From Sacculina carcini (taxonomy: Eukaryota > Arthropoda > Thecostraca > Sacculinidae), in the NCBI GenBank assembly GCA_916048095.2, contig OU696584.1, forward strand, positions 2,747,317 through 2,811,316: DNA of 64,000 nucleotides, in the 5' to 3' direction. Shown piece by piece: positions 13,312 to 56,900 of the stretch. Under the pieces are notes generated by a model. It was not told where the DNA came from and did no database searches. It saw nothing but the letters and a program-made list of their open reading frames with translations. The position numbers and the translations under genes were made by a program. Position 1 is the first letter of the stretch. Each line of letters begins with the position of its first letter.

Positions 13312-15473
13312 ATGACTTCCAGCGATCGGTGAGTAATTAGAAATCATGGTCATGTTTATTGATTTTTTTTGTATGAATGCATTTGTTATAAATATGTCTT
13401 CCAAATTATATCGATATTTGAGTTCACATTCCAGTATCCTCTTGATTATACATGTTAACATACTGACTAGACATATATGTCTATCTAGGAATATCTGGGT
13501 ACAAAATTTCGTGTTTCTTGTTTCAGTCGGTGATTGACTGTGAATGATATACTGGATATCCTGGAGGTCGATGAGAATGATACGGAAAGTGTAGATGTTG
13601 TCATTCAGCCTCCGGAAGGTGACTTGTCGGATGGCTATTCGGGTTCTGAGGACGAAAAAGAAAAGGATCCAGAACATTTTTCTGCTGCTGTTCTTCAAGC
13701 CCCAACAGAAGTTTGGCATCCCCTTTCTGGCCATACCGACGAAGATTGTATTGCATCTGATATTGAAGACGATGAAACACCGACAACCTCATTTGGTGCA
13801 AGAAGTCAAGGGGGTATTAATAAACGATGCAGACGTTCTCAATCAACACGCCGTGTGCAGGGGAGATATATTCCAACTTGGAAGAGAGCGCAGTCAATTC
13901 CTCCTCGCAATCCAAGACCATTTCCTCAATTCAGCCACGACCGTTACATTGGAAAAACACATCAGGAACTGTTCTTTCTCTTCTGGGATGATGCCTTTTT
14001 GAACTTCGTTTGCATAGAGTCGAACGAGTACTCCCTTAAAAACGGCAGGCCAAATCTCAAGGTAAACCCTTTATCACACTCATAATTTGTAAGCTATCAT
14101 TCTTCTGTAAGTGCCAAATCATGTAATGTGCTGATGAAATTTACCATAAGACTAAGTGGACCACTATTTATGATATTCTTGTCCTTTTTCAGGTCTCTGT
14201 GGATGAAGTCAAAGTGTTTCTTGGAATCCTCCTTCTCTCCGGGTACGTGCCTCTGCCTTCATATCGCATGTACTGGCAATCATCTCCAGATACACACAAT
14301 CCGTTGGTAGCTGGCGCCATGACGAGAGACAGATTCGAACCCATCAAAAACAACCTCCACTTTGCTCATGATCCCTGTGACAGTGACAGTTTCTGGAAGT
14401 TGCGCCCTCTTATGCGCCACCTCCAAGAGAGATGCATGGCGAACTTCGTAGCTAGAAGGAATGTTTCACATGACGAATCCATGATCAAATATTTTGGGAG
14501 GCATTCGCTAAAGCAAGCAATAAGAACCAAACCAATTAGGTTCGGTTTCAAATCGTGGTGTCAAAACACTCCTGATGGCTACCTTTTCTCCTTTGACTTC
14601 TATCAAGGAAAAAGCATTGCGGAGAACGCTGCAACACATGTCAAGGTCTGTGGCAGGTCTGGAGCCTCTGTTCTGGACCTTCTGGAGAACATGAGACCCG
14701 ACTTCAAGGAATTACCATTCTATTTCTATGTCGACAACTACTTCACTTCCATGCAGTTGTTGAAGGAAATGACTTGTCGGGGGTATGACCTGACTGGGAC
14801 AATTCGGGCGAACCGTATTCCAGGAGCCCCTCCACTGACTGCGATAGATGCGTTTAAGAAAAAGTCTCGTGGGAGCACGGAAGTGGTAACCTCTCACAAT
14901 TTTATCCTTACCAGATGGAAGGACAATTCGGCCGTGACCCTGGCATCTACCAGTTACGGCGATAAACCTGTAAAACCTGTTCGAAGGTATTCCCGAACTG
15001 ACAGAAAGCACGTGAATGTCTCCCGACCCCACGTTGTCGCTAAATATAATGAGTGTATGGGAGGAACCGACCGCATGGACCAGCACATCAATCATGCAAG
15101 AGTGAGTGTAGGAGGAAAGAAGTGGTGGTGGAGCCCGTTCACATGGTTGTTGGATGTCAGCGCCCAAAACGCGTGGAGATTGCACATTGGTGCGGGAGGA
15201 AGACAAACGCAAGTTGCTTTCAGGAGAGACATTGCTGTTTCGATTTTGACGAATGCTGCCTCGAAACGGAACTCACGGACATTTTATCGGCGAGTTGGTA
15301 CTCCTGCTGCTAATGAACTCCGTTATGACAACATAGGTCATCTGGTCAGGAAAGCTGCAGAGAACAGGCGTGGGACATGTCGCTGTTGTCATATCTCGAG
15401 AGTGAGTTACATCTGCGTCAAATGCGAGGTTTTCCTTTGCATTGAGTGTTTTATTCAGTACCACACACGATAA
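13312..15473 (+). pseudogene. piggyBac transposase (three exons, one premature stop)
   Basis: Exons: 13312-13328 (ATG, ends at GATCG|GTGAGT), 13527-14061 and 14193-15473. Acceptors are TTTCTTGTTTCAG and TTGTCCTTTTTCAG, and phases match. The N-terminal region is acidic. The DDD transposase domain shows DESMIKYFGRHSLKQ (first Asp), FYVDNYFTSM (second Asp) and NECMGGTDRMDQH (third region), then KKWWWSPFTWLLDVS. The C-terminal Cys-rich ribbon CRCCHISRVSYICVKC ends the protein, as in most piggyBac transposases. In the spliced frame, codon 8 is TGA (13531-13533), directly before LTVNDILDILE. I found no other break over about 600 codons. Function is cut-and-paste transposition at TTAA. Either the copy is just dead from one mutation, or the true start lies downstream of the stop. 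Confidence 0.85.
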
Positions 15474-22712: not shown

Positions 22713-22714
22713 CT

Positions 22715-22733
22715 GACACACACACACACACAT

Positions 22734-22785
<52 letters not shown>

Positions 22786-22806
22786 ACCCACATACACACA
22801 CACATG

Positions 22807-22862
<56 letters not shown>
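22715..22862. repeat. (CA)n microsatellite, imperfect
   Basis: About 148 bases of CA units with a few T and C interruptions, next to (TG)/(TA) runs at 22,580-22,660. Confidence 0.95.
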
Positions 22863-22868
<6 letters not shown>

Positions 22869-22929
22869 AGTTCACACGCAGGTAGTCCGACTATGCTGCT
22901 ATAGTGTTACGCAATCTAAAGACTAATTG

Positions 22930-23890
22930 TATGTATGTATGTATGTGTGTGTGCCTGTGTGTGTACGCATGACTAGGCATGACCACATGTCAAGGATAAA
23001 CAGTGCTCAAAAATGGGCTGAAATTTCGTTGTGGGAGAGTATCGATGATAATTCACACATGCACACACACACACACGCTAACATACATGTGTGTGTGTAT
23101 CCAGTGGCTATGATAATCGCAATATGAGCAGCTGCGCTTTCCAAACAAAAAAAACAGTTGTAAGTTGTGTCGTAGTGCTTTGACGGAAGGTTAGAATTTG
23201 CGCATTGTGCAAGGGCTAGTATATATATGTATATAACATAGGGCTAGTATACATATGTATGTATATGTACATAACGCAACTGTGATGTGTGCATGTGTGT
23301 AAGTCACTTTGTTGGCTCCTCCGAGATCAAATTCGCTGCGACCGCCCCTGAATTCGAGTTTTCGGGCGGTTTTGCATCAACCCTCGTAGATTGGCATCAA
23401 TCATTTCGGGATATAGTAAGCCCGGGAGGATATGAATTAGTTGAACAGCTCTAGTTTTTCCTGTGATCTGTTCGCTCACCAAAGCAGCCGTTATTGTTGA
23501 CATTTTTGCTGCATGTCATTGCATTCCTGGCCAAGGCACCAGCTGCTTATGGCCAGGTCAGGTCACGCGAATTATACATCAAGTCGTCTGCTATGTAAAA
23601 GCCTCAATGGTGAAAGTGGTCGTTTTTTCCGCCGTCCATACTGCTCAGTGAAAGCCACGCCATGATGTGGGGAGAGGGTATTGAGCTGGATTGTCTCCGC
23701 TGTTTTTACTGATACTGAGAAATGGTTCCGCTCCCGGCGCAGATCGTCGGGTCAAATCGTCAATAATTGACAGTGGCTCTCAAACATACATCAGCCGTTT
23801 GTGCACGTGACATTTTTGTTCATAATTGTTTTGTTCCTGGCTCCTGATATTGCTCTTGTATTTGTGCTGTTCTGCTGCGTGTATATGTGT
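22930..23890. other. Non-coding stretch
   Basis: Short TG and GTAT runs at 22,930-22,965, 23,080-23,100 and 23,220-23,300. No gene seen. This lies downstream (minus sense) of the YVT gene and may include its 3' UTR, but I saw no AATAAA within about 280 bases of the stop. Confidence 0.4.
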
Positions 23891-23891
23891 T

Positions 23892-23898
<7 letters not shown>

Positions 23899-23949
<51 letters not shown>
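23899..23949. repeat. (TG)n microsatellite just past the YVT gene stop codon
   Basis: About 25 uninterrupted TG units on the plus strand, thus (CA)n in the 3' UTR of the minus-strand gene. Confidence 0.95.
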
Positions 23950-23951
<2 letters not shown>

Positions 23952-23978
23952 AGTGACTACCTGACGTAGCGGAATCCT

Positions 23979-26900
23979 CTACTTTTTGCCGTAGTTGTTG
24001 TAGCTAGGGTAGGTAGGCTTGGGGCACACAGTCACATACTGGTTCTGTTGCTGAGTCTGAAATACACACACACACACACACATACATATACACATACATA
24101 TAATTGCACAGACACTAGCGTGGTAATATATTGTTATGTATTATCTATTATTTGTTTACAGTCTATTTTTAAATACAACAGGCATTCATTGTAGTGAAGT
24201 TTGAAGCGTTTTAAATGTCCAAATGGAGCATTTTTCACTCGCAGTGATTGACAATGAAGTTATATGTCTATGAGCACATACAGGGGCGCCTACGATGTGT
24301 ACGTATATGCACGTCATGTTTTTATATCCAGAATTGTTACTGACAAACATTAGCTAGCGTCCTAACGTTTTACTTGTTTATTTATAATTACATAATTTAT
24401 ATAGCCCTTCTATTTATTGCTATATTTGTTAAATATATATATGCTGATAAATAATGTTAGATAACATTTTAAGAAGCGGACGGCGTTGTGTAGTTGTTCA
24501 CTTCTACTGCCAAAGATATCTGATATGATCTGGTCAGATGCAGTAGAATACTGAGATAAGACACGAAGTTATTTGATCTGATCACGGCCATGTGACGTCA
24601 TTCTCACCTTGGTCACGGTGACGTACTGGTTCTGGGTCTGTGTCTCAGTGACGTATTTGTACTCGGGATAAGCTGACGTGACCGTTTGCGTGACGTAATG
24701 CGGCACGTTCTGCGTCTCGGTGACGTATTCGTAGCTCACCTGCACACACACACACACACATGCGCGTATATTATCCTCCACACGGACAAACATAAATTCA
24801 TATAATTCAAACTGAATAGATATACAAAAATATGGATTCCCTTAGGGAATTATCGGAAAATTCAATACATTGTCGGCGAAAACAGTGAATCAATAAATGA
24901 TTGGAAGATTCAAGGAAACTTTTTGATAAATGGAAGCCGGGGCATATGAATGTATGACTTGCTCCCCGTGACAAAAGCCTGGCTACATATACACTCACAT
25001 ATAATTCCACAGAGATGAAAGAACATTTAGCAAGTATGAAACAGGTAGCATTGGAAGCGAATATAATAAGATTCTAAAATGAAACAGGTAGCATTGGAAG
25101 CGAATATAATATTATTCTAAAATAAAACAGGTAGCATTGGAAGCGAATATAATATTATTCTAAAATGAAACTGGTAGCATTGGAAGCGCATATAATATTA
25201 TTCTAAAATGTCCTAATGACATGGGTCTTAGGGAAACTTTTGTCCGAAATGTCCGAACGTTTACCTGAAAATGTGAGAAATTAATGCATATATTTATACT
25301 GTACGAGCCACGCAATTTAGTACCGGTACATAATGTTGGTACAATCAAAACAATCGTAATGTACTTCTAATATGACCAGAAATTTTTCATCAGATAATTA
25401 GGATGATAAAGATGTTATTCGTGTAATCATTAATATCAAGAGCTATTTGTGTTTTTCTATCTGGTTGAGATTATTCAGCGAGAAATCTTAGGATTTCGTG
25501 ATATCGAGTATTGTGAGGCAGTATTGTGATATCAAGTATTGTCGCAGTTCGGCGAGAAACTGCAATGCACAACGGCAAGATAACTACCGCCATGCATGCG
25601 TGGGTGCGTATTGAGCTGTGTACAAGAACCATATATTGAATATATTGAATATCCGCTGAGAATCTGATAATGTAGCTTTCAAAAAGCCACATTTTTGATA
25701 AAATTCACATCATTGACCTTGGACCCATTCTGGACCAATTTATACATGATGAAATTACATGGATGGAAATTATAATCGATAAATATAATTATCTATAAAT
25801 ATAATCTATAGATAAATGAGGTTGCAATTGTATTGGAAAAGTATCTTGAAGTTTGGTTTATGGATAAAATTTAACTCGTAACTCCATGCATTCGGACTTG
25901 ATTTATTTCCTATACGGCAGTAAAGTTGACGGGAACATTTCGTTGAGCATATCATATTTGGAACATTTGTATGTATCACAGTGTGTGTGTGTGTGTGTAC
26001 GTGTGTGTGTGTGTTCACCTGTGTCTGCGTGACGTATTTGTACTCGGGGTAGGCCTGGGTCTGGTAGGCGGTCTTGGTGACGTAGTATGGCACCTGGGCG
26101 GTCTCAGTGTAGTACTTGTTGACCACCTCAGTCTCGGTGTAGTAGGCCTTCTCTGTCTTGGTGACGTAGGCCGTCTCTGTGAAGTATTCGTGCTCGGTCA
26201 CGTACTGAGTGTCGTACAGCACCTTGGTCGATATCTGGTCGCAGCGAAATCAAACCACACACACACACACACATGTACACGTAAACACATTGAAATATGA
26301 AGTGGCAATATTTGCGATTATGCCACACCGTACTTTCACTGCCATATCTCCGGCTCAAAACAAAGTTGAAACTTTTTCCACGTGCAGAAATATTTTCCAA
26401 ATGTTGAGAGAAAATTCACGTGCGTGCATATATGTTTGTGTGTGTGTGAGTGTGTGTGTTTGTGTGTGTTACCTTGACATCGGGAGCAATGTAGCTGGTG
26501 ACGTACTGAGTCTGGTACTGAGTGCTGGGGTAGTAGAGGGTCTCCGTGATTTGTTGATACAGTGTGGTTGGCTGCAGAGCTGTGTATGTGTTGTAGCGGG
26601 TCTCGTAGCCAATCTTGGTAGAAGTCACTGTACACACACACACACACACACATACACATACACGTCAAAAAGATAGCCAAATATACATTTTTGCTGATAA
26701 GGGCATTGATGGTTGAAATAGGATACCAGAATTTATTGTCAACCAAAAGATAACACATATATTCAAGAAATATTACGACAAATGGACGGCAGGACAAACG
26801 AGTGTTTGACTGTCATTCCTGTGTAGGACAGCTAGGTGATAACACACACATACACGTATGCACACAAATGACGGTGCATCATTGCAGCTCGTGCAAACAA

Positions 26901-27385
26901 AAAGTGATTTCTACCGTTGTGGAATCAATGTGTATCTTAAGAGCTTTGTCAAGCATCACTGGCTACATGAGGACGGTGCAACATGGTGAATGTGTATATA
27001 TTGGTGATTCTCACTCGCTCGCACTCTGCGGGTATTTGGCGAATGTCAACCATGGATTCATGAATTTCAAACTTGAACAACTCAAACAGAACTTGTATAT
27101 CATCTTTGATTACGAGTCAACATGCTGGCTGGTGCGGTGCATTTATATTTAACATGTTTGTCTCTTTTAATTTTCCTCACCGGTGACATAGTGAGTCTCT
27201 GCCTTGCACGGCGGCGTTCCATAGCCTGTCGATGGAGCCGGCGCGTCATACGAGGGGGCAATGGGAGGCGGCGCTCCATATTGGGCGTCAGGGGCGGCCT
27301 TAGCAGCGGCATCTGGGGCGGGCACTGCCACCACAGCAGCCACCAAGCACGCCACCACACACGCCACCACACTCATCGCGTTCAT
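23979..27385 (-). CDS. Secreted Tyr/Thr-rich YVT-repeat protein (novel, five coding exons)
   Basis: Minus-strand exons: 27385-27181, 26627-26473, 26234-26019, 24739-24608, 24056-23979. All acceptors are AG, all donors GT, and phases match (1, 0, 0, 0), giving about 261 residues. Residues 1 to about 21 are a signal peptide (MNAMSVVACVVACLVAAVVA). A Pro/Ala/Tyr segment follows (YGAPPPIAPSYDAPAPSTGYG). Exons 2-5 are repeats of Tyr-Val-Thr-x-Thr type; I count about 38 Tyr in all. A module VPxYVT...AYPEYKYVTxTQ occurs in exons 3 and 4, and NQYVTV occurs in exons 4 and 5. Beyond the signal peptide only two Cys remain, one on each side of the repeats (PPCKAE and TVCPKP). No enzyme domain or transmembrane segment is visible. 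It is likely an extracellular structural, matrix or adhesive protein, by inference from composition only. I do not recognise the family. Confidence 0.85.
24742..24758 (-). promoter_or_regulatory. (TG)n tract at the 3' splice site of YVT exon 4
   Basis: On the minus strand the intron ends in (TG)n directly followed by CAG. The same intron begins with (AC)n right after the donor (25981-26016 region), so the two ends are complementary. Confidence 0.7.
24812..24962 (+). pseudogene. Relic of LINE C-terminus and tail in YVT intron 4
   Basis: With one frameshift the end reads FKETF then DKWKPGHMNV before TGA. That matches the terminal FNDSFDQWKAGQTS at 33.2 kb and the relic at 26.7 kb. It lies antisense to the gene, just upstream (minus sense) of exon 4. 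Confidence 0.5.
25038..25209. repeat. Tandem repeat, 43-base unit x 4
   Basis: Four copies of a unit beginning GAAACAGGTAGCATTGGAAG and ending TATTCTAAAAT, with a few substitutions, inside the YVT gene's exon 3-4 intron. Confidence 0.95.
26255..26273 (-). promoter_or_regulatory. (TG)n tract near the 3' splice site of YVT exon 3
   Basis: Lies 20 bases above the acceptor GCGACCAG in a 238-base intron (26472-26235). The intron's donor side reads GTAACACACACAAACACACA, so an AC-GT duplex across the intron is possible. Confidence 0.7.
26715..26812 (+). pseudogene. Relic of LINE C-terminus in YVT intron 1
   Basis: Reads RIPEFIVNQKITHIFKKYYD then KWTAGQTSV and a stop, the same closing motif as the LINE fragment at 32.8-33.2 kb. 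About 100 bases remain. Confidence 0.6.
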
Positions 27386-28051
27386 TTTCTGCAAGGCGCA
27401 AAAGCACGCACACAAACGTGTGTGTCAACTTGTGCTCTCTCATTTAGAACAGTGGTTCGTACAGATCAGTTTTTATCAGAAGAGACTGCGGTTTTTGTGC
27501 GTATGTCTGTGTATATATGTGTGTGTGGGTATGTGCTTGTGTGTGTGTGTGTTCGTTTGTGTGCGTGTGTGTATTGTGAAATGTTTTACGCGGCGTGGTC
27601 GCAAACAATTGTGATTTCTCTGTCAACTGTGTAACAAACTTGACAAAGACAAACGTGCAAATACCCCGGCATACCATCAATCACACATATACATACACAC
27701 AGGCACACGCGCGCACACATGCACAGCACACACTGGTACACATACACGTTGGTACATAAACATATGAACATTCTCTGATACACACACGCACATACACACA
27801 CTCCTACTCAAACTTTGTATAAGACTGGAAGCTATAAGAATTTAAACTCTGAGATTGATAAATTTTGCTTAAAATTAGTAACAATGGCTATCAGACGACA
27901 ATAATTGAATTTAGGGAATTCAGGGAAGAACACAATTCATTTTATGGAAATCACTGTCTAATTATGCATCATAATTATTAAATTCAAGTTCGTTTTTACG
28001 ATATTCGGTTACAATAAGCTGCCAAAAATTGGGCTGGAAATGTTGGCTTAC

Positions 28052-42183: not shown

Positions 42184-45100
42184 ATGTTGGCGGCACAGTT
42201 GTCTGTTGGCTGGGGCGGCTCGTGTCGCTGTCTATTTTTGTCTGCCGCGCGTCACGGCTGGCGCATGCAGCCGCGTCACGAGCAGTTGGCGCGCGTGCGT
42301 AGCGCACAACAGCAGAACCAGCAGAAGCGGCTGCAGCGCACTGATGAGCGACATTTTCACCTGCAAGTTGTCGGCAATGGCCGGCAGGGGGCGCCACTGG
42401 CTCTGAAACTTTTCTCCCACTCAAGCAGGTGTCACATTCGTCTCTCCCTCTCTCTCTTTGGCGTTCATATCTCTGTATTTCTCTCTCTCTGCGTGTGTAT
42501 GTTTTGATCGTGTTTGTATTGTATCATTTATCTACGTTTTGCTTTTCTGCAAAACTACATTGTCTTTTTAAACCTGGATAATTGTGTTTTATTTTACAAT
42601 TGATTGTATTTCATTCATTCAATTGTGTTTTCGGTTTATGACTGTGCATTTCAATTCAGTTCCAATCCCAATATTATGAATAAGTCCAAGTCACCCTGTG
42701 GAAAAGTCCACCGCCTGGACATGTGTGTGCTCTGTAGGCCACGCCATCACATCGGTCCACCAACTCATAGTCGGGTGTGTGTATGTGTGTGTGTGTGTAT
42801 ACATGTGTGTGCGTGTGTGTGTGTGTGTGTAGTTACCTGTTCAACTGCAGCGAGGGTGTGCAGCGCATATCTGGTGAGATTCGCTCGCGACTCACATGGC
42901 TGGACGGCGTGTTGCTGACTTCTTGTGAGTGGCGCGCCATGGGCGGTTTGTGTGGCCTGCTGCTGACATGCTCGGCGTCGGGCATGAGTCGCGTGCAAGT
43001 TCACTCGCCGCCCGGACTGGTACCTCCGCCTCTCTGTCTCTCTCCCCACCCTCCTCTCCTCTAACTCCCATGTCGTCCTCGTCGGTCGGCTGTTTGTTCT
43101 CATTGAATTATTGTGTCTTGGCTGTATGTATGACTTGGATTTTTACGATGAATGACGTTTGGCTTATGTTAAATCAATCAAATTATCAATTACTTATTTT
43201 GACTTGGTCATGATGTGAGAGTTTAGTGTTTTTATTATGTTTTATCATTGTGTTTGGTTGACTAAGTGGCGTAATATGGTCTGACAGGCCGGTGCCAAAT
43301 CCATGCAAATAATATCCATGCATTTTGATCATCGACACACAGAGAGAAAAACACAATGTTTTCAAAAAGTGGAAAATGTATTGCAAATGAAACAAAATAC
43401 TACAAACAAATGCACTGTGTGTGTGTATTTTGTATTTATTTGTAATTGTATTTAACCATGTATTGCCACAAACAAATATACTATTGGAAAAAGACCCGTC
43501 GAGCTAATGCTCATAGACAGGCTTACATTTCACTTGTACAGGTGGAAATAATGCTATCAAGCCAGGTTATATACACAAGTACATACATACACACACATGC
43601 GCGCGCGATCACATACAAACACTATTCATATACAATGATACACAACAAACATATAACCATACCTACCACAGTCTACCATACATATTCTTACACATATTCT
43701 CATACTCATATACACATGAAACAATAAGCAAACATACAACTATATGCAAACAAAGTGCACGCGTATACAACCTCCATACGCGTATCCGCACATATTACCA
43801 TACAACACCTAACACGTATTCAAGTACATACACACATTTGATAAACATACCCACACATACACACAATGCGCAATCAGACGAATATTTTGGAAGCAAACAC
43901 ATAAAGACACATAGATACACACAACATAACAATACCTCATGCATAAACACATTCATACATATCTATTCTCATTCCCGGATTCATATTTATTCATAAATTC
44001 ACGAATACGTAACAATTGATAGCAAAACAAAACTACATCATACAACTTTTGACCTGAGTTAATTAGGTAAATTTTTATAATAAGCATTTATAGCTTGTTT
44101 TATTTTCTCCACGTCGCTCTCAATATATAACAATTCCTTCAAAAACATCGGCAAACCATTCCACAACTGCGGCCCGTAATACAGAATACTGTCCTTGAAT
44201 AACATTCTTCGAAATCTTGGTGGAGTTAAATTATAACTACTTCGTGTACTAATTACCGTGCTTTCCCGAGTGAATATTTTGTGTTTACAGGTTTTTGCAT
44301 CTGAGATTTTTACTGATGAGTAAGATCAAGAATTTCTTCCGAATTGTGTTGAATTTTTAAATATTGGTAAATATCGCTGATAGATCCGAATTTATTTTTG
44401 TGAGCAATGCATCGTAAAACTCTGTTTTGGATAAGTTTGATTCTAAGAAGGAAGGAAGGCCATGTGCAAGACCAATTAGCGCTACAATATATTAGATGAG
44501 GATATATAAGAGTATAGTAGATACTAATTAAGGCTTCTGTCGTTAACTGGTATCTTACTTTATATAAAACACCACAAATTTTGGAAATTTTGCCAAATAC
44601 ATGCTCAATATGGTCTTTCTAATTTATATTTTGTCGATATGTTTGTTTTATGTTGTTTGATGTTTATGTGTTTTGTTTGATGATATATGTTTGATTTATG
44701 TTTTCGTGTGTGTGTGTGTGTGTTTGTCGGTACAGCGTACGATGATGAATTCGGTGTCGAGTTTTGTCAATCTGAAAAACGTTGATGTACAATTGAACAG
44801 CGATCCAGACAGTGTCATACTGGACCGCGGACTGGAGGTGCTTCAACCCAGGACACACACACACACACACACATACATTTTTCATTTCATTTATTGAAAC
44901 ATTTATATTGCGCAATCTCTACACAATGTCTCAGATGCGCAGACAGTACAATATTTACAATGCGGCATTGTACAGACACATACATGTACAAATATTCACA
45001 AGGACACAAACACATATACATTCAGAGGAAGTGTGGATATATCACTGTCAACGACAGGTCAGCTCGCATTCTTCGGCATTCCGGCAGGTGAACATGATGT

Positions 45101-50969: not shown

Positions 50970-53900
50970 CTTGCTCTCTTCATTTCCCTGTTGCTAGTTC
51001 AGTTTTTCTCCCACTGTACTTTTTCCAGTGTATGATTCGTTTAGAAAACACCGGCCTCCGTGGTGATGTTTTGTTTTTGTTTTGGCGCTGAATTATATTT
51101 TCTCAGACGCACAGTCTCCTATTGGGACGTGTTGTTTTTGTGCCCTGGAATTGTACACCTGTCAGGAGGATTGTACACCTGGCAGGAGGATTGTACACCT
51201 GGCAGGAGGATTGTACACCTGGCAGGAGGGTTGTACACCTGTCAGGAGGATTGTACACCTGGCAGGAGGATTGTACACCTGGCAGGAGGGTTGTACACCT
51301 GGCAGGAGGGTTGTACACCTGGCAGGAGGGTTGTACACCTGTCAGGAGGATTGTACACCTGGCAGGAGGATTGTACACCTGGCAGGAGGGTTGTACACCT
51401 GTCAGGAGGGTTGTACACCTGTCAGGAGGGTTGTACACCTGGCAGGAGGGTTGTACACATCAGATGTGTTGTTTCTCTGAGTCCGCTTGTTAGCAGATGA
51501 ATGTCCTCATAATTGCTCACTATCCCCATATACAAGTGGCTTTAATTGGGGAGTTGTGTAGGAATTGGATATTTTTGTAGTCGTATCTCTTGTAGCATTT
51601 CTGCTATTGGTTCATGATCTATATAAAACTACATATAAGAATTAAGATATTGTAATCAATTCGTATTTCGAGTGTTGGACCAGTGTTGCATATATGACGG
51701 AGCATATGTGCAGTGCACATGCAGGTCTGCTATTTTAGCGCTTCACAGTCACGTTCTAATTTACTTTGATCAAAATACATTAAAATTAATTTAATAAATT
51801 TGATTAAAATAAATTGAGTGTTGTAATAAATAGTTGCTTTCTTGAGAGAAATGTGCGTTGATAACTACGAATGATTAAACTCAGCTGTGTTTGGCTAAAC
51901 GTGAATCATTTTGCAATTGCTCACGAATTTTTGGATAGGCTTTCAGGCTATTTTTTGGCAAAATATTGAGTTGCATTCTCTCTGCTGTGCGTTGTTGTTG
52001 AATTTTTCCACTAATGCTAATCCTGACCGTTTTATCGCCGAAAATGTGGCAGGTAAATTGGCACTAATTGTGCCTTATATAACACCATATTTACCACTCT
52101 TCATCACATCAAACACCGATTGACATAAAATTCAGTGTATTGTCAACATAATCAGTGGCAGTATAACATCCGTGAAGTTGACATTGAGACAGAAGGTTTC
52201 TCCTTACACGATTTCAAGGCTCGTGCACATGAAGAACAATGTTGACTGGGTGAAGGTGAATGATGAATTGAAAGCAATTAAAGTTTCAAATCTGCAGCAG
52301 ACGGAATGCCCCATCGATGCATTGAACAAATACATTACCGATGTCATCTCAAGGAGAGTGCCTACTAAAAAACTACGTTTTCGCTCTGATGACAAAGCCT
52401 GGTTCACCAACGAATGTCGCAGCGCTCGTGAATCCAAGCAGGAGGCTTACCACAAGTGGCTCCAATCACGCTCAGCCGATTCATGGAATGTCTACACTGA
52501 GGCCAGACGGCATGCTGAGCATGTGTATTCAGAAGCGGAAACACGTCACTCAAAGAAACTTGCTGAAAAACTAACATCTGCCAATGACGCCCACAAATGG
52601 TGGTCAACGTTGAAATCGTCAGTGTTTGGACATGACCTGTCTGTCCCTCCTTTATTTTCAGCGAACGGTGAGCTCAAAATCAACCCAACAGAGAAGGCAG
52701 AGTTGCTTATGGATTACTTCAATACCAAGCAATGTCAAGGGTCCATTCCGTCTGACGATTCATCTGTCCTCGCCCCGAAAATCAAAGGCATTGCCTTCCG
52801 ATCAAAAGAAGTGGCGAATCTCATGAAAGACCTTGATGCCCACGGAGGAACAGACCCTCTGAATATGTTTCCGCTATTTTTCAAGAACACGGCAGATACT
52901 CTAGCTCCGAAGCTCAGTGCTCTTTTCAGGCGCTTGATGAAGACTGGTTCGTTTCCATCATGTTGGCGGGTTGCGAATATCACGCCCATACCAAAAGGAA
53001 CCAATTCAGCTGATGTTGCAAACTACCGGCCAATATCAATTACGCCGATTCTGTCCAAAATATTCGAGCACTTGATATCTTCCAGACTGTCCAAGTACCT
53101 GGAGAGCAACAATCTGCTGTCGGAAAACCAATTTGCATACCGCAAAAAACTCAGCACGACTGACGCTCTGCTTACTATCACGCATGAGCTCCAGCAAGTG
53201 CTAGACAAAGGCAGTGAAGCCTGGATTGTGCAGTTGGATTTCTCGGCAGCATTTGACCGTGTGAGCCACCAGGGCTTGTTGCAAAAACTGAGAAAGATTG
53301 GAGTCGGCGGCCGTTTGCTAAGTGTTTTGCATCAATTTCTATCCAATCGCGTACAACGTGTTGCCATCGATGGAGCATACAGTGGCTGGCAGAGCATTGC
53401 GTCCGGTGTCCCGCAGGGAAGTGTGTTGGGTCCTATTTTGTTCAACATTTACACCGCTGACCTGTACACAACCACACGCAACCCTGTATATGGATATGCT
53501 GATGATATCACCTTGATGGCTGTAATTTCATCTCCTTCGGACAGACCACAGGTACGTCAAACGGTCAACGACGATCTCAGCAGCGTCCTGAAGTGGTGTG
53601 AGAGGTGGAATATGATGCTGAACACTTCGAAATCTAAATGCTTGTTGGTTTCTAGGTCACGTACCGTTCAGCCTTCACATGGAGCTATCCTCATAAATGA
53701 CGCCCAACTCAACGTGTGTGATGAGCTCAAAATATTGGGAGTACATGTAGACTCAAAGCTCACGTTTGAGAGTCACATTCGGAAGCTAGTTTGTTCGGCA
53801 TCGCGGAAACTGGGAATTATAAGAAAGGCATATCGGATGTTCGGTAGCAGCACAATCTCAAAAAGTTGTTTTCGCTGTTTCATTTTGCCAATTCTGGAGT

Positions 53901-56900
53901 ACTGCGCCCCCGTGTGGTCTTCTGCTGCGGATTGTCACCTCAATCTCATCAACAGAGTTGTTAGAACTTGCAAGTTCCTCTGTGGTGACTTGGTTCTTGG
54001 TGATCTTTGCCATCGTCGAAAGGTCAGCAGTGTGTGCATGCTGTACAAGATCAAGCACAACGACCATCATCCGATGAGCAAGTCAATTCCTGATGATTTC
54101 GTGGCAGCAAGAAGCACACGGTTTACATCCAAACAGCATTCCCAGTGCATGGCTCCAATTCGTTGTCGTACAAAACAATTCCAACGTTGCTTTCTTCCGG
54201 CCACTGTGTCTACTTGGAACACGTTGAAGGAGGAGGCTTTCTTGCAGAGCAATTTGAACAAATTCAAGGCCAAAGTAAATGAAATGCTACTGAAAGAGCG
54301 GAATTGACTGTTGAGTCTTATTAATTGTTTATTTATTCATATTTATTGTTATTTATTCATGCTTATTGTTATTTATTTTCTATTTATTCATATTTATTCC
54401 TATTTTACTCTCTATTTATTACTATTTATCATTGGTTGTTGTTATTTATTAAATTATACTTTTACTCAGTGTTGGCTGTTGTTGTTTATTGAATCATATT
54501 TATTGTTGTTGCTGTTTATTGAGTCATATTTATTGTTGTTGTTGTTTATTGAATCATATTTATTGTTGTTGCTGTTTATTGAATCATATTTATTGTTGTT
54601 GTTGTTTATTGAATCATATTTATTGGTGTTATTGTTTATTGAAACATATTTATTTGTGTTGTTGTTACTTATTGAATCATATTTATATTTATTGTTGGAT
54701 GTTTCTTTTTTGAATCATATGTATTGTTCTTGATTGTTATTTATTACTTATTTATTAATATTTATTCTTATTTATTGATGGCTGTTTTTTAATGAATCAC
54801 ATATTTATTGTTGATTGTTATTATTTATTGAGAAACGTGGGCGGAGTGAAATTATGGATTGTTATCGGATGATGGTTTATTATTTATTGTTATTTATTTA
54901 TTATTTTCTTTCCAACTCTCTTTCTAGACTTATTTCTCTTCGAACTCTCTTTCTCTCTTAATCTTTAGGGCGCTTCCGGTACATGGGGCCACCTTAGGGT
55001 GGTAATAGTGCTTGCACTCTTCCCATGCTACTGGATTTGCCTGTAATTAATAATAATAACATGATACATTGAGTTGATGTGTCCTGGTTGTGATGGCAAT
55101 GTGTGCATGCCAGTGTATGCATAGTTGAGTGATTGCAGAGAGTGTGTGAGAGAGAGAGGGGTGTGTGTGCGGATGACTCCATTGTATATGAGCTCCATTG
55201 CGGCGAGCAGTGTGCAATATTGCAAGTGTCGAGATGGCGTTGGTGTGAACGGGCTTACTACTACCGTTGCGGCCAATGATCTGCGACCGCAATACCATGC
55301 GATGAATATCGACGTTGGCTAAAATGGTGCATGTCGTCAGTGCATATGACAGTGGCGTATGTAGTGACTGAAAGTTAAGCGAGTGACCATCTTGGCCAAT
55401 TTTTTCAGCTGTATGTAGTTCATGCAAGGGTATTGGTTTGGTTATGTTTAATATATCTGTACTAAGGTTCTGATACAGCACATGCTAGACATAGACACTA
55501 GACATACAATGTTATTGTCGGGCTTAGAATTGTACATGCAAGCGTTAAATTGTTTGAAAGATGGGTCAAGATGGTCACTCGCTTAACTTTCAGTCACTAG
55601 ATACGCCACTGTCATATGCACTCACGACATGTAACATTTTAGCCAACGTCGATATTCATCGCATGGTATTGCGGTGGCCGATCATTGACCACAAAGCTTG
55701 GATGGCCGCAACGGTAGAAGATCCTGTTTTATCTGCAAGTGTTTGTGAGTGTGTGTGCACTGCTGGAGAATGGTGTGCTTGCTTTGTCGTCTGAGTTCGT
55801 TGAGAGAGTTGTGTTGGCAAGTGGTGTGGTCTTGTAGGCGCGTGCGAGCGACTGCGATGTCGTCGCGCGTCAGGCTGTGCGTGCGAACACGTGTGTGTGT
55901 GTGTGTGTGTGTGCGCATGTGTGTAAGTAAATATAGCCATAGACGTGTACGACTAAGCGTGCAAACACACACCCACACACACAAAGAGGCAAATTTACAC
56001 GCACGCATACACATATATATATATATATATATAGGCACACACATCTAAGTGTTTAGTAGTCCTTCGTACACATGCGAAGCCGCCAATAAGCAAGTAATTC
56101 CTATGGACAGCCGGATAAACACGCACACACAGACATGCGTACACACACACACGCACACATGCTCCCGAGTAGCTCAGTGGTTAGGCGCTGAACTCTCGTG
56201 TGAGAGGTTCGCGGTTCGAATCCTGGCCCAGGTTCGTTCATCAACACCTCCGCTTGGGTCTACCGGGAGTCACCACTGTAGATGGACACACAGTGGGGCG
56301 CGCCATATAATCTGAACTGGCTGGGGCGCGCTTACAACACCAATAACAACAACAACGCACATACACGAACAACAATCACACAACTAGCACAACTTCATAA
56401 ACTACACTAGATCACATATCAAACACCAAAAGAACATACACATACAACACACTCAAAAGCATCACACTCTCAAACAGCAATATAACACGCACACTAGGGC
56501 TGGGCAGGAACCGTGAAAATTGATACTCACGGTTCCGGATCCGTAGGGCAGTGGAACCGTTGGAACCGGTTCCGCTTGGATGAAAAAATATATTTTCTGT
56601 GCGCATGTTTAGAGATCACCCAAAGGGAAAAGACACAAAAGAGAGTTGGCATAGATGAACGTGTGACTGGGAAAATAACAAATGTTTATATAAATTCAAA
56701 ATTTTATTCAAAGTCAAAGTTCTATCAGTTTCATTATAGTGGGTATTCTCACAAAATTAAATTCAACATTTCATAAGTTTCATTTTTGTAGGGGATCCTC
56801 CTTTTGTTTTTTTTGGGTGAGTGAGGCATATAACTCTTGACTACGGCCCTGTAATTTGAAGAAAAGCTTTAATATTCAATGAAGACATGTACAAGGCATT

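Follow-up and report, generated by a model that had tools for sequence, protein, structure and literature searches.

The minus strand of the window (the whole 64-kb stretch of DNA that was analysed) carries a five-exon gene encoding a crustacean-like protein with YVT repeats. Its coding part is composed of the following exons, introns and dinucleotide tracts.

23979-27385, minus strand: five-exon gene (coding part), YVT-repeat protein, crustacean-like
27181..27385, minus strand: exon 1, coding part from the ATG; aligns with P0001-P0004
26628..27180, minus strand: intron 1, 553 nt, phase 1; opens with GTGAGG without AC and ends with (GT)10 plus ACAG
26632..26652, minus strand: (GT)n tract of the intron 1 acceptor, in the sense strand
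26473..26627, minus strand: exon 2, 155 nt; skipping leads to a frameshift
26235..26472, minus strand: intron 2, 238 nt, phase 0, AC..GT
26437..26470, minus strand: (AC)n tract just past the intron 2 donor, interrupted, with perfect runs of 9, 10 and 12 nt
26256..26273, minus strand: (GT)9 tract near the intron 2 acceptor
26019..26234, minus strand: exon 3, 216 nt; skipping would preserve the frame
24740..26018, minus strand: intron 3, 1279 nt, phase 0, AC..GT
25981..26014, minus strand: (AC)n tract just past the intron 3 donor, with perfect runs of 14 and 18 nt
24743..24760, minus strand: (GT)9 tract directly before the CAG of intron 3
24608..24739, minus strand: exon 4, 132 nt; skipping would preserve the frame
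24057..24607, minus strand: intron 4, 551 nt, phase 0; opens with GTGAGA without AC and ends with (GT)n plus ATTTCAG
24064..24082, minus strand: (GT)n tract of the intron 4 acceptor
23979..24056, minus strand: exon 5, coding part; the stop codon is TAG

The spliced product counts 261 residues with many YVT/TET repeats, and exon 1 encodes what appears by eye to be a signal-peptide-like start. A protein search with this product yielded 19 relatives, with an identity of 58-63% for the four best full ones. Relatives with a named organism are found in the amphipod Hirondellea gigas, the crab Scylla paramamosain and the barnacle Amphibalanus amphitrite (two proteins), and a weak one (E 2e-4) in the lobster Homarus americanus, so that the host is most likely a crustacean. 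Their source names include 'Extensin-2-like' and 'adhesive plaque matrix protein-like', and no Pfam match above the cut-off was obtained for this YVT/TET-repeat protein family of crustaceans. The four coding introns are backed by the alignment of the spliced protein with P0001-P0004, which is free of gaps at all four exon junctions; exons 2, 3 and 4 are all kept in these relatives. P0001-P0004 come from short contigs (1.1-4.5 kb) that are presumed to be transcripts. In the same alignment, the more distant relatives P0006, P0008, P0009 and P0010 display gaps at other places, and P0005 resembles a chimera with an unrelated enzyme.

The window contains no known RNA families (at the gathering threshold) and no tRNAs. 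Among the open frames listed, the other long ones look by eye mostly like mobile elements, and this reading confirmed no other spliced gene in the window. A Pfam search with ten frames, including one within intron 3, gave one clear match. The long open frame at 14127-15470 (plus strand) contains a DDE_Tnp_1_7 transposase domain (E 2e-66) and is piggyBac-like by family usage. At 52124-54304 (plus strand) lies an open frame of 727 codons. Its best relatives are of the LINE type, with domains for reverse transcriptase and endonuclease; among the 7985 candidates scored, 4259 relatives were found at E<=1e-30. A 20-bp unit is repeated about 15 times at 51150-51458, with 95% matches.

For the four coding introns, a tract was defined as a perfect AC or GT run of at least 10 nt, neighbouring runs being merged. 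GT tracts are then found at all four acceptors and AC tracts at two of the four donors; within 50 nt, none of the four donors has a GT tract and none of the four acceptors an AC tract. All six merged tracts lie at most 25 nt from a splice site and obey a single sense rule: acceptors carry GT, donors AC. Among the four coding introns of this gene, the only spliced one that could be confirmed in the window, two have the AC..GT arrangement and none the reverse, GT..AC. With a cut-off of 8-9 nt, intron 1 gains one interior 9-nt GT run. The repeat placement that defines (AC)m-(GU)n introns, with AC near the 5' splice site and GU near the 3' splice site, is found in introns 2 and 3; introns 1 and 4 display only the GU side.

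It had been claimed in the initial annotation that introns 2 and 3 open with (AC)n and close with (GT)n, and this proved correct, as did their coordinates. Intron 2 opens with GTAACACACACAAACACACA (also given as GTAACACACACAAAC). Its (GT)9 tract stops 21 nt short of the exon. Intron 3 opens with GTGAACACACACACACACGTAC, which contains one AC more than had been quoted, and closes with (TG)n followed by CAG. The location on the minus strand was absent from that description, as was the fact that introns 1 and 4 also end with (GT)n, without AC at the donor.

The possibility that the introns were copied from each other or from a mobile element was discarded: BLASTN with a low-complexity filter, against each other and the window, revealed no shared body. 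The only matches were a 43-bp tandem array, some short repeat-like fragments and a 30-nt stretch shared by introns 3 and 4. The array lies within intron 3 (25036-25210) and consists of a 43-bp unit present 4.1 times with 95% matches. The 30-nt stretches, which are 90% alike, are located at 24984-25013, some 245 nt ahead of the intron 3 acceptor, and at 24083-24112 in intron 4, just before the GT tract. This match is perhaps the trace of a duplication.

Two further introns may be present in the untranslated parts of the gene.

22713..23960, minus strand: candidate 3'UTR intron, 1248 nt; opens CAG/GTAGTC, then (AC)27; ends with a long (GT)n plus CAG
28051..27389, minus strand: inferred 5'UTR intron, derived from sequence alone; donor AAG/GTAAGCC

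The candidate 3'UTR intron begins shortly past the stop codon, and its GT-rich end stretch is very long and closes with GTCAG. Between its first 80 nt and its last 170 nt, 70 pairs are predicted, and it is possibly an AC..GT intron of the 3'UTR. No tract of at least 10 nt is found near the ends of the inferred 5'UTR intron. AC runs of 15 and 10 nt are situated at 149 and 129 nt from its acceptor, and an 8-nt AC run lies 29 nt before the acceptor, contrary to the sense rule. A TATAAAA-like promoter motif is located at about 28228-28222 (minus strand), upstream of the likely 5'UTR donor.

When the six tracts were placed at random in the four coding introns, all of them came to lie at most 25 nt from a splice site in 0/200,000 placements, judged by position alone; when the inferred 5'UTR intron was added together with its tract of 15 nt, six of seven were likewise reached in 0/200,000. 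Sliding the gene rigidly over both strands of the window gave at least two AC..GT introns in 0.02-0.04% of 20,000 draws (the true position included) and four GT acceptors also in 0.02-0.04%; all of these probabilities are optimistic, because the gene was picked for its striking look. The pinning of the repeats to the splice sites of the YVT gene is hardly random.

Perfect AC/GT tracts of at least 12 nt occur 53 times in the 64-kb window, and about 6-12% of the 50-nt windows around the gene carry a given tract type, depending on the cut-off. A motif scan of the 53 tracts on both strands detected a donor-like NAGGTR at most 24 nt upstream for AC in 4/53 and for GT in 1/53 cases, and a YAG at most 8 nt downstream for GT in 7/53 and for AC in 5/53. 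As two of the four donor-like sites and four of the seven YAG sites are the YVT gene's own or belong to its 3'UTR candidate, the scan provides no independent support. One donor-like site at 42836 (minus strand), CAG/GTAACT right before an (AC)n tract, has no adjoining coding exon that could be recognised by eye.

The two donors followed by AC (GTAACA and GTGAAC) have no G at position +5. Their U1 duplexes (-6.5 and -8.4 kcal/mol) are the two weakest of five, the other three donors reaching -8.8, -9.5 and -9.6 kcal/mol; with five donors, one of which stems from the inferred 5'UTR intron, such a pattern has a chance of 1 in 10. The weak AC donors would fit a need for help at these sites. On the acceptor side, 10-12 pyrimidines are present among the 21 nt that precede the final three bases of introns 1-4, so that none of the acceptors has a plain polypyrimidine tract at this place. 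The last 45 nt of these introns hold 14-18 G, and the longest strict G-N chains at the four acceptors comprise 9-10 G, where the pattern of the pUG fold asks for at least 12 G. The spacing of the G residues in this fold is said to be flexible (PMC12636285). A looser pUG quadruplex fold may form at the acceptors, the strict chains being too short.

When each intron is folded alone, 36 end-to-end pairs are predicted for intron 2, 23 for intron 3 and none for introns 1 and 4. The 36 pairs of intron 2 are interrupted, and about 19 of them connect tract to tract. This end pairing was equalled by dinucleotide shuffles in 2/200 cases for intron 2 and 0/40 for intron 3, in agreement with the earlier claim that the intron ends are complementary. 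The z values of the minimum free energy (MFE) amount to -2.2 for intron 2 and -3.2 for intron 3, compared to +0.4 for intron 1 and +0.3 for intron 4. The inferred 5'UTR intron forms 5 end-to-end pairs and reaches a z of -2.4 without any repeat bridge, so a low folding energy alone is not special. Predicted end pairing together with unusual stability is found in introns 2 and 3, with shuffles rather than the other introns of the species as the reference for stability.

The GT tracts of the other introns are competing partners for the AC tracts. The AC of intron 2 pairs with the GT of intron 1 at -38.5, of intron 4 at -37.2, of its own intron at -32.6 and of intron 3 at -29.4; for the AC of intron 3, the values are -40.6 (intron 1), -40.2 (intron 4), -35.4 (own) and -33.5 (intron 2), the stretches compared being unequal in length. 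For both AC tracts, the own GT is thus third of four, and the GT of two other introns pairs more strongly. By these duplex models, the AC-GT match is not intron-specific, and each of the AC tracts is able to pair with each of the GT tracts.

In the full pre-mRNA, the partition function predicts 18.6 expected pairs between the GT of intron 1 and the AC of intron 2, versus 11.6 between the AC and GT of intron 2 itself, and 18.4 between the AC of intron 3 and the GT of intron 4. With 300 nt as the largest span, exon-crossing pairs are predicted for both AC tracts (20.0 and 17.6). The MFE structures with a span of at most 400 or 600 nt contain exon-spanning pairs as well, with 20 + 20 of them at 400 nt and 0 own-intron pairs. 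At a span of at most 1400, intron 3 obtains 18 own pairs and the AC of intron 2 is divided, with 19 pairs across exon 2 and 12 own. The idea that each intron is looped out by its own repeats, as put forward in the initial annotation, is partly supported: the isolated introns are predicted to pair end to end, and in the models of the full pre-mRNA exon-spanning or cross-intron pairing is preferred.

In nascent RNA from which nothing has been removed, the pairing across exon 2 appears first, with 24 pairs, as soon as the AC of intron 2 has been passed. Just into exon 3, the MFE structure is the own bridge of intron 2 (19 pairs). From the AC of intron 3 on, the pairing across exon 2 counts 19 pairs versus 12 own at all three later stages, and exclusively own-intron pairing is not seen past this point in such RNA; the own bridge of intron 3 is absent in nascent RNA that reaches exon 4 with nothing removed. 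In total, 18 nascent or partly spliced states were folded (three span limits by six stages), and 12/18 display own-intron bridges only. Where intron 1 or introns 1 and 2 have been removed, this applies to 10/15 states. The remaining six of the 18 comprise three mixed or cross-intron states, one exon-spanning state and two unpaired ones, the latter being unable to form the intron 3 bridge by construction because of the span limit of 400 nt. In these models, the own-intron bridge is possible and is favoured under ordered splicing, yet it is not dictated by the sequence itself. Such an order cannot be assumed, as human splicing order reportedly does not follow a simple kinetic model (PMC5766209).

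Put tentatively, the single most likely reading places introns 2 and 3 as candidates in the (AC)m-(GU)n class, here in an arthropod, with bridged ends that would aid splicing. The (GU)n that immediately precedes the 3' splice site would be the standing acceptor element of this gene, replacing a clear polypyrimidine tract. Where the donor lacks a G at +5, as in these two introns, (AC)n would let the intron ends pair and would thereby draw the splice sites together. As any AC can pair with any GU, the bridge to the right partner would form mainly if the introns leave approximately in the order of transcription. The gene structure, the positions of the tracts and the pairing predicted for them are results of the analysis, from a single gene that was picked for its look; cellular formation of the bridge, a benefit for splicing and a role of the order are inferred. 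Close to this reading stands another one, possible and somewhat less probable, in which the repeats are recognised by proteins and no pairing is involved. The (GU)n at the acceptor would then substitute for the polypyrimidine tract or bind UG-binding proteins of the TDP-43 or CELF type, and the (AC)n at donors would be bound by CA-binding proteins of the hnRNP L type or simply tolerated. The complementarity would be a by-product, since GT at the donor side would create decoy donors and AC would make a poor acceptor tract. The presence of GT at 4/4 acceptors versus AC at 2/4 donors argues for recognition by proteins, as does the AC-GT matching that is not intron-specific. From introns 1 and 4, with their (GT)n acceptors and no AC, it also follows that GT needs no AC partner. 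What recognition by proteins does not predict, however, is that AC tracts are pinned a few nucleotides from two donors, and that these are the two weakest ones.

Exon looping is unlikely by comparison. In this case, the GT before exon 2 or 3 would pair with the AC after it, resulting in skipping or circular RNA. The pairing across exon 2 is stronger than that within intron 2 and is favoured by the partition function; the GT involved is also the earlier one to be transcribed, and the MFE structure at 400 nt is made up of exon-spanning instead of own pairs. Moreover, exon 3 would be skipped in frame, and in C. elegans complementary matches that flank exons promote back-splicing and skipping alike, as for zip-2 (PMC8330042). 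Against this, the own-intron pairing leads in RNA that just reaches exon 3, and skipping is not the sole product in the relatives, given that P0001-P0004 keep exons 2, 3 and 4. A slightly lower probability still was assigned to coincidence, in which a striking gene was picked among many in a microsatellite-dense genome. The density of perfect AC/GT tracts and the share of 50-nt windows that hold one are in line with this, but none of the 200,000 random placements matched the gene, and six of six tracts obey one sense rule. The most improbable of the readings is a switch set by splicing order: the AC would bridge its own intron if the upstream introns leave in order, and otherwise the exon in front of it, so that the in-frame exon 3 is skipped or a circle is formed. 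Repeat length and order would then tune the number of YVT repeats, and the 3'UTR would add an AC..GT intron with far longer tracts.

If introns 2 and 3 are indeed spliced with the help of a repeat bridge, structure-assisted splicing would reach beyond fish into arthropods. It would then be either an old trait or one that emerges in any place rich in AC/GT repeats. Within the gene, setting introns 1 and 4 (GT only) against introns 2 and 3 (AC and GT) offers an internal comparison for the contribution of AC, and the competing exon-spanning pairs make a role of splicing order testable.

The closest known system is formed by the (AC)m-(GU)n introns of zebrafish, reportedly treated by Lin et al. 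2016 (Genome Res. 26:12-23). That AC-GT introns have been described in fish, as the initial annotation stated, is confirmed by three sources. In zebrafish, introns with AC repeats near the donor and complementary GU repeats near the acceptor have a lower folding energy and are spliced without U2AF (PMC9024468), and dinucleotide hairpins mediate U2AF2-free splicing (PMC9198270); the UG repeats have CA partners in fish, unlike the human intronic ones (PMC12636285). In a literature search judged by titles and the opening lines of abstracts, AC..GT introns were not reported for any crustacean or other invertebrate, which is weak evidence of their absence. Like the zebrafish introns, introns 2 and 3 have AC near the donor, GU near the acceptor and predicted end pairing. 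The YVT gene differs from the zebrafish class by its crustacean-like host, by its additional GT acceptors without AC, and by the cross-intron and exon-spanning partners that compete with the own ones; the likeness is one of sequence and predicted fold.

Reverse complementary matches as in zip-2 of C. elegans provide a second comparison. Complementary tracts likewise flank exons 2 and 3 of the YVT gene, but here they consist of simple repeats placed right at the splice sites, and a circular or skipped product is hypothetical. Introns 1 and 4, on the other hand, are similar to the human splice-site UG (pUG) repeats, such as the TG repeat of CFTR, as they have (GU)n before the acceptor without AC at the donor; their strict chains of 9-10 G remain below the 12 G of the pUG fold, but a looser fold may form. 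In the terms of PMC12636285, introns 2 and 3 resemble the fish introns and introns 1 and 4 the human ones.
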